In this document: positions 4-1,262 of the stretch, piece after piece
Layout of the letters: each line of letters starts with the position of its first letter
Position numbering within the stretch: the first letter of the stretch is position 1
Source of the DNA: a virus
DNA length: 27,771 nt
Reading direction: 5' to 3' (one strand)
IMG/VR virus record: IMGVR_UViG_3300042545_001303
Coordinates: 1 to 27,771 of that record
Notes under the pieces: model-generated
Told to the model about the DNA's origin: nothing
Seen by the model: only the letters and a program-made list of their open reading frames with translations
Database searches by the model: none
Translations under genes and position numbers: made by a program

Positions 4-321
4 ATGAAATCACTTGAATTATCCATTGTTAATAAAAGACTATCAGCTTGGTTACCAATAGTGTTGGATTGGCAACGTATGCAACGCAACAATTTAAAAT
101 TTTACAATAACTTAGATTATCTAGTAGAATGTATAGTCAAAGGATGGTATTATCCACTCAACGATCTCACACTAGATCAAGAAGCCATTATACAACATTG
201 TTTAATTTATCGGCATAATCTCAATCTCATGACATGGAACTTAGAAAAGTTTCCCAACAATACCATCGAGCTGCATAACCTATTAGAAAAAAATATACAT
301 GCAGTGGACAACATATACTAA
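4..321 (+). CDS. Small unknown protein, possibly 5'-truncated
   Basis: This frame encodes about 105 residues ending at a TAA at 319-321. I do not recognise the family. The protein is rich in Leu, Asn and aromatic residues, and has no signal peptide, membrane segment or cysteine motif. An ATG lies at position 4, but only three bases precede it in the window and they do not contain a stop, so the true start may be further upstream and no ribosome binding site can be judged. It is the only plus-strand gene left of 7118 and converges on the minus-strand block. Tandem hairpins followed by a T-run begin 11 bases after its stop, which suits the last gene of a transcription unit. It is probably a small phage accessory gene; no function can be assigned. 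Confidence 0.55.
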   Translation: MKSLELSIVNKRLSAWLPIVLDWQRMQRNNLKFYNNLDYLVECIVKGWYYPLNDLTLDQEAIIQHCLIYRHNLNLMTWNLEKFPNNTIELHNLLEKNIHAVDNIY

Positions 322-382: not shown

Positions 383-434
383 ATTTGCCGATATTAAGTA
401 GTTGTAAGTATCTCATCTAGACTCAACGGCCACA

Positions 435-455
435 CTTAACCCGCACAGGGTTAAG
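435..455. repeat. Perfect 8-bp inverted repeat
   Basis: CTTAACCC (435-442) and GGGTTAAG (448-455) are exact reverse complements separated by five bases. This is the strongest single hairpin in the gene-free region and would fold on either strand. No T-run follows it on the plus strand, so it does not look like a terminator. Confidence 0.6.
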
Positions 456-507
456 AAATGGCGACCTCATCTGAGCTCTTACTGCCACACTAGCGTTAGA
501 ACTATCA

Positions 508-524
508 GATATCAACTTGATATC
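508..524. repeat. Near-perfect palindrome GATATCAA-C-TTGATATC
   Basis: Positions 508-515 and 517-524 are exact reverse complements around a single central base. As RNA this gives a 7-bp stem with a 3-base loop. As DNA it is a 17-bp palindrome of the kind bound by dimeric proteins. It lies inside the gene-free stretch and does not overlap a promoter I can see. Confidence 0.5.
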
Positions 525-833
525 CTGCACAGGCGGTTGTCCGGTACCTGCTCGTTCCGTCTTAATATACAACGGTAGTCTGTAACACACACGCAGTCGT
601 GCGCACAAACTCGGGGTTTTTCTCCCCTCTTTTTGCCTTTTTGTCATCTTCAAACAATCAAATCGCAGGTCTTACTAAGCGATCGTCGTCCTGTTAAGGA
701 TAGTGATTGAGTGCTTCTTGCAGCGAGAAGACTTCCATCCCTGAGACTCTCGTCCAGGTTTAGGGCACCCGAAGTTAACTGGTGCTGGTCGTTACTGCCG
801 ATCGTTGCCTATAAAGTTGGTGGTACTGCTGAT

Positions 834-1262
834 TTAAATTTTATTTTTTATGTGTGATCCATGTACACGCACCTGAATGTGACCATTGTAGTAGTCATCT
901 GATTCAAGTACACGCCTGCTGAATTGTTCGCGGGCTTCTATGTACGAGCATTCGGATTTTGATTTACAGTAGTATAATATTTCGCGTCGGAAATTGTCTG
1001 TGCCTTGCTGATTGATATCTTCTGTGAGATTGGGGGAGCTGCCGTAGTATTGTTGCCAGTCTGAGTTGATTTTACTTCGAATTTTCTTGCGTTTTTTAGT
1101 GCCATTCTTTAATTTTACTACTTTATAGGTGGTCTTTGCAAACTTTGCGAGTTTTTTTCCTATGTACATACGACCAGTTGCTATATTTGTAATTTGATAA
1201 ACAAACCCTATACAGTCTTCTGGTAATTCTTCAACAGGAATTCCTTGATAATACCATGTCAT
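834..1262 (-). CDS. GIY-YIG family endonuclease
   Basis: The 142-residue protein opens with a GIY-YIG nuclease core: a GFVY strand at residues 19-22 and MYIG at 32-35, spaced as in this family. Between them and the helical part is a Lys-rich insertion (about 44-64). Glu109 in the YIEAREQF stretch and Asn126 in YYNGH are plausible catalytic partners, and the Trp-Gln-Gln-Tyr-Tyr-Gly stretch at 69-74 is a pattern I associate with phage members. Such proteins in T4-like phages are mostly free-standing homing endonucleases (Seg type) or related nicking enzymes that cut one strand or make a double-strand break in related DNA. It is the last gene of the minus-strand block, starts at ATG, and has a possible promoter of its own in the 43-base gap before it. 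Nuclease class is fairly sure; the homing role is inference. Confidence 0.8.
   Translation of the reverse strand: MTWYYQGIPVEELPEDCIGFVYQITNIATGRMYIGKKLAKFAKTTYKVVKLKNGTKKRKKIRSKINSDWQQYYGSSPNLTEDINQQGTDNFRREILYYCKSKSECSYIEAREQFSRRVLESDDYYNGHIQVRVHGSHIKNKI

Follow-up and report, generated by a model that had tools for sequence, protein, structure and literature searches.

RF01718 ("Polynucleobacter-1") is the described RNA family closest to the locus studied here. It was reported in a 2010 screen, where it was listed as a probable RNA, probably cis-regulatory (marked "y"), with Burkholderiales and fresh water or estuary samples as its source (Weinberg et al. 2010; PMC2864571), and our literature search found no further papers naming it. 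Other known systems offer looser parallels. GOLLD, ROOL and OLE are large pseudoknotted RNAs of unknown function, of which GOLLD and ROOL are phage-borne; in GOLLD the 3′ part is conserved and the 5′ part varies more (PMC12286853). The highly abundant noncoding RNAs of ICP1 and the PLE satellite are a parallel in that a large phage has a gene-free stretch and that phages as well as integrated elements carry such RNAs (PMC7567579). The omega RNA (HEARO) that accompanies IscB is a structured RNA beside a nuclease gene.

The window analysed here is the whole 27,771-nucleotide stretch of IMG/VR virus record IMGVR_UViG_3300042545_001303 (positions 1–27,771). On its minus strand, conservation and covariation among 125 phage loci delimit a noncoding RNA of ~470 nt at 332–801, the 5′ boundary being uncertain within ~30 nt. 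Like RF01718, this RNA is common to phages and Burkholderiales islands, and its bases 790–652 align with all 141 nt of the model at a score well over the cut-off; it differs in its length (~470 nt here and ~600 nt in islands), in being mostly phage-borne and in that the 5′ part of some relatives no longer matches RF01718. The whole RNA resembles GOLLD and ROOL in kind, and its 3′ part is conserved while its 5′ part is more variable, as in GOLLD. However, its sequence differs from those of GOLLD, ROOL and OLE, with no covariance-model match, and identical-core direct repeats such as those reported below were not found described for these three RNAs in the available part of PMC12286853. GOLLD and ROOL are often located near tRNA islands, whereas no tRNA was identified in the window, nor in any of 13 loci scanned. 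The likeness to the ICP1 and PLE RNAs is one of description, and the ICP1 RNA is longer (~800 nt; PMC7567579). The omega RNA differs in its nuclease family, in showing no covariance-model match to the RNA here and in that the nuclease here is not a constant neighbour.

The gene-free stretch and its Rfam match

No gene occupies bases 322–833 of the window, and no credible ORF was found from 321 to 834. The GC content of this stretch is 0.40–0.47, compared with 0.29–0.33 in bases 1–300 and 0.29–0.32 in bases 1051–1350. It carries perfect 8-bp hairpins at 435–455 and 332–350 and a 6-bp stem at 351–375. The predicted folding energy of the minus strand of 332–801 was better than that of 100 of 100 shuffled sequences (z −3.1). 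The plus strand of the same interval likewise folds well (z −2.75), so that energy alone does not give the strand; the minus strand is indicated by both the Rfam match and the pair counts. The preliminary description, made from the letters of the window, had noted a gene-free structured stretch with inverted repeats that was less A/T-rich than its flanks, and these observations are borne out. The interval it gave, 383–833, is indeed structured, but because the element spans ~801 to 332, its 3′ end lies ~50 bases outside.

A 76-amino acid ORF on the minus strand (423–653) was considered as a gene and rejected: it has no Pfam or PHROG match and spans RNA helices with single-base indels in relatives. 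Codon-level conservation, including the "codon-stop" appearance of the core (RNA-URA), was also rejected, as the alignment shows the matching frame to be broken in relatives such as locus L001.

Positions 790–652 on the minus strand match RF01718 over the whole model (1–141) with 114.8 bits, against a gathering cut-off of 37 (E 1.5e-24). This was the sole match in the window among Rfam models at E up to 1, with GOLLD, ROOL and OLE unmatched. Models of group I and group II introns, tRNA and tmRNA gave no match in the window either, in agreement with the earlier failure to recognise a tRNA, a tmRNA or a group I intron by eye. The RF01718 model corresponds only to the 5′ third of the RNA; in phages the covarying structure runs ~320 nt further 3′. 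The RNA was thus already known in part: the earlier word "undescribed" is wrong for the 5′ third, because this is RF01718, whereas no family in Rfam 15 accounts for the remaining two thirds, for the broad occurrence in phages or for the repeats with identical cores.

Structure of the RNA

Column pairs were scored on 125 dereplicated loci by a G-test with average-product correction and compared with alignments simulated on the tree. Observed covariation reached 240, against null maxima of 43–69, and most of the top pairs were canonical. The derived structure contains 100 pairs, including one pseudoknot between a loop and 492–495 and the crossing helices around GGTACCGG..ACCGCC. In A2, an alignment of 30 sequences, 84.6% of cells were paired (38–42% in slid controls), 439 cells were changed on both sides (59–124) and the covariation score was 0.405 (0.07–0.11); the structure was partly derived from A2's own sequences, which favours it over the slid versions, and the gap is large and clearest in the double changes. 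The earlier suggestion of a large structured phage RNA is therefore strongly supported by the covariance-model search, the covarying pairs among homologues, the comparison with shuffled sequence and the lack of codon-level conservation, which were among the checks proposed with it.

The 5′ domain (652–790) corresponds to RF01718. In this region, a long-range helix (794–798/720–724, spanning 720–798) encloses the hairpins 781–785/765–769 and 741–757, and further helices are formed by 788–790/777–779 and 726–730/714–718; mostly 80–95% of cells are paired in these helices, with changes on both sides. The long hairpin at 580–608 pairs through its loop (592–595) with 492–495 as a pseudoknot (helices 12 and 13); the loop pair 256–355 in alignment numbering covaries between CG and TA among the 125 sequences. 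The conserved GGTACCGG...ACCGCC core (530–573), also present in relatives with no RF01718 match, is composed of the crossing helices 569–573/536–540 and 546–550/530–534, with 98.6–100% of cells paired. It is closed by helix 554–557/499–502 (spanning 499–557), which is paired in 100% of cells and has four pairs changed on both sides.

Two direct repeats follow, copy 1 at 466–478 (GAG-CTC-AGATGAG, 7-nt core 466–472) and copy 2 at 412–424 (GAG-TCT-AGATGAG, 7-nt core 412–418), with the perfect 8-bp hairpin 435–455 between them in the derived structure. For the base preceding AAGAC, most aligned sequences show the same letter as on the 3′ arm of this hairpin and the complement of the letter on its 5′ arm, which suggests that a base triple or alternative pairing may form here; alignment positions 285, 397 and 411 are window positions 564, 452 and 438. 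The RNA ends in a 3′ stem-loop (GAGCG..AGCGA, 351–375) and a terminal hairpin (332–350), together at 332–375, with covarying pairs. On the plus strand these hairpins are followed by TTTTTTT (together 332–386) and may double as the terminator of the convergent gene at 4–321.

Distribution in phages and bacterial islands

A pattern built on the RF01718 core identified 77 viral contigs, nearly all with the order gp46 (SbcC-like), SegE-like GIY-YIG nuclease and then 400–500 gene-free bases; in the alignment of this set, conservation extends ~250 nt past the Rfam model. A pattern from the 3′ part identified at least 120 contigs with this layout, in most of which the 5′ domain had diverged beyond the reach of the first pattern. 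Four contigs with the strict 5′ motif (L056, L057, L062 and L036) lacked the strict 3′ pattern, yet were matched by a covariance model built on the 3′ region, which recovered such contigs only when they were long enough. The 14 other records searched carried one copy each. A pattern for another core type revealed viral relatives with no RF01718 match but with GGTAC..ACCGCC (except L427), similar 3′ hairpins and twin repeats with the identical cores AGGAAAA, AACAAAA, AGAAAAA, AGCGAAA or ATTGAAA; because core identity was among the criteria that selected them, they demonstrate breadth and are not an independent test.

BLASTN gave no match against cultured phages, RNA model R1 gave only chance-level matches in five cultured relatives (E 0.45–0.53), and a plasmid search gave only chance matches. 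Strict-pattern matches in cellular genomes (L190, L191, L193 and L195–L198) were rejected as chance on the basis that they have no RF01718 match, and L043, L101 and L104 look like chance matches as well. RF01718 is the head of a much larger RNA whose carriers are hundreds of uncultivated phages and, in bacteria, some genomic islands.

Diverged versions of the RNA were located in chromosomal islands of Burkholderiales. Of 186 genomes from a single Burkholderiales genus, probably Polynucleobacter, 20 carried RF01718, mostly on chromosome-sized contigs; elsewhere it was rare. In the islands the RNA is divergent to a DUF6641 gene, and a short tyrosine recombinase is encoded close to the RNA, in many cases with an intervening variable gene. 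The islands of L281 (10184–15104), L277, L278 and L283 carry the RNA with DUF6641, the short tyrosine recombinase, an AAA ATPase and a larger integrase, and the variable gene separates the RNA from the recombinase. Because the island AAA ATPase is closest to phage clamp loaders, its sequence suggests, rather than establishes, that the islands are phage satellites, possibly of large phages.

Twin repeats with identical cores

The two 13-nt repeats lie 54 nt apart, and their 7-nt core varies among phages while remaining identical between copies in 125 of 125 aligned loci. Alignment positions 377/431, 378/432, 381/435 and 383/437 agree in all 125 loci and changed 20, 7, 11 and 12 times on a tree built without the repeat positions (window coordinate = 849 minus alignment position); the core as a whole shows ~42 concerted changes on the tree. 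Core identity was also found in 53 of 53 new loci (not dereplicated) and in 56 of 57 further new loci, for which exact duplicates were removed, copy 2 was taken as the best TCT match and a shuffled-core control was run; the exception, L453, differs at one base. The triplet before the core is always CTC in copy 1 and TCT in copy 2 (125/125). Among the island copies, 22 of 26 readable loci are identical, a figure biased because the scan itself asks for identity; of the remaining island loci, inspected by eye, L260 and L244 have identical pairs and L263 and L269 mismatched ones. L453, L263 and L269 are the only loci found with differing cores.

The 3′ half contains a duplicated unit, in which two strands pair over ~4 bp and each runs 3′ into NN-R-YYY and the 7-nt core. 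The short helix that joins the two units ahead of the repeats is moderately supported (helices 17 and 18). Scans for 13-mer and 7-mer complements identified no consistently placed complement to the core within the RNA, the excess over control in one scan being the copy's own complement. Four phage contigs (131–166 kb) contained no third core copy or complement beyond shuffled expectation, and 15 host genomes shared no long target. SegE residues tracked position 377 no more than in simulations or than did gp46 as a control, and at slower core positions the gp46 control equalled the SegE signal at two of three; SegE-core coevolution was accordingly rejected. No pairing found explains the coupling of the identical repeats, which is the most surprising and least explained feature of this RNA.

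Proposed function and alternatives

Taken as a whole, the locus is on balance best explained by a stand-alone, probably trans-acting structured RNA. This RNA belongs to large myoviruses with T4-like gp47-gp46-segE upstream and to a family of integrated islands, and is probably made as the 3′ part of a segE transcript or from its own promoter. Its repeats would serve as equivalent docking sites on a pseudo-symmetric RNA, each occupied by one copy of the same partner, of which the simplest candidate is a homodimeric protein that another part of the element encodes. With the same partner at both sites, the two would have to change together. Because no partner was found in the RNA, the phage contigs, the host genomes or SegE, we infer this twin-site mechanism and put it forward tentatively; for each of the ~42 concerted changes the partner would have to change correspondingly, a demanding requirement for a protein.

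Alternatively, the repeats could contact each other, or those of a second molecule, through same-base interactions in an RNA-only dimer or assembly like those of OLE, ROOL and GOLLD. Homotypic contact of this kind would require identity with no third partner, and none was found in the RNA, the four phage contigs or the 15 host genomes. OLE dimers have a conserved symmetric stem in which four A-A pairs link the chains, and the phage RNAs ROOL and GOLLD form RNA-only cages (PMC12286853). The identical columns contain all four bases, which fits this explanation, whereas the three strictly different positions within the repeats (CUC in copy 1, UCU in copy 2) argue against it. To our knowledge, no natural RNA contains a parallel homotypic stretch of mixed bases, and we regard self-contact as rather unlikely.

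We consider it more doubtful still that both copies base-pair with one host or phage RNA, with wobbles accounting for the CUC/UCU and G/A differences. Every fixed difference between the two copies is a transition, which pairing of both with a single strand would predict; however, the complement was not above chance in the phage contigs and host genomes scanned, and the A/G mixtures that wobble would tolerate were not seen.

Genomic context

Upstream of the RNA lies the SegE-like GIY-YIG gene (834–1262, minus strand; PF19835, E 1.5e-33); its best PHROG match, phrog_447, carries the label "NAD synthetase", apparently an annotation error that has been propagated. A radical SAM gene (1306–2169) lies between segE and gp46, with similar genes in ~22 other loci. 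Downstream is a convergent gene (4–321, plus strand) to which the ORF list and Pfam and PHROG searches assigned no function.

SegE is directly upstream of the RNA in 163 of 184 loci, an arrangement in which the RNA may also play a 3′-UTR role behind segE; some of the other 21 loci end at contig edges or are chance matches. By analogy with omega RNA and IscB, the RNA could serve this nuclease as guide or scaffold; the preliminary description had remarked that mobile nuclease genes often lie beside structured RNA. A functional tie to the nuclease is not supported. SegE is displaced by an intervening gene in L120, L154 and L170, replaced by another gene in L041, L091 and L097, on the opposite strand in L364 and L415, and not found nearby in L427 and L443; across the loci no constant association with one nuclease was observed. 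Moreover, bacterial copies adjoin DUF6641 and tyrosine recombinases, the fastest core position shows no coupling to SegE, and SegE-type proteins occur in many phages outside the RNA-bearing group. We therefore consider a guide or scaffold role highly improbable, and the displacement, absence or inversion of the nuclease in some relatives makes the RNA look stand-alone rather than a nuclease guide or leader.

There is equally little to favour the assumption made in 2010 (PMC2864571) that the RNA is a cis-regulatory element (5′ UTR or riboswitch) acting on the gene downstream, since the next gene in the window is convergent, downstream genes elsewhere are unrelated, on either strand and often convergent, and in relatives a TATAAATA-like late-promoter motif often directly follows the terminal hairpin, so that the RNA is not the leader of the next gene. 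From its sequence features, the element is almost certainly a stand-alone structured noncoding RNA.

Implications

RF01718, an Rfam entry with no known function, proves to be the head of a far larger RNA. With an extended model, annotators could find this RNA and would no longer call such stretches empty. The twin repeats provide a rare testable handle, as swaps of natural cores would separate partner-binding, self-assembly and guide models. We regard it as plausible, though with some reserve, that RF01718 is a fragment of a superfamily of large phage and island RNAs with a GGUAC..ACCGCC pseudoknot, in which mutually identical but freely changing twin segments would mark a homotypic quaternary contact or twin docking sites. 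If this is true, covariation by identity rather than by complementarity would mark a type of contact or docking undescribed for natural RNAs.
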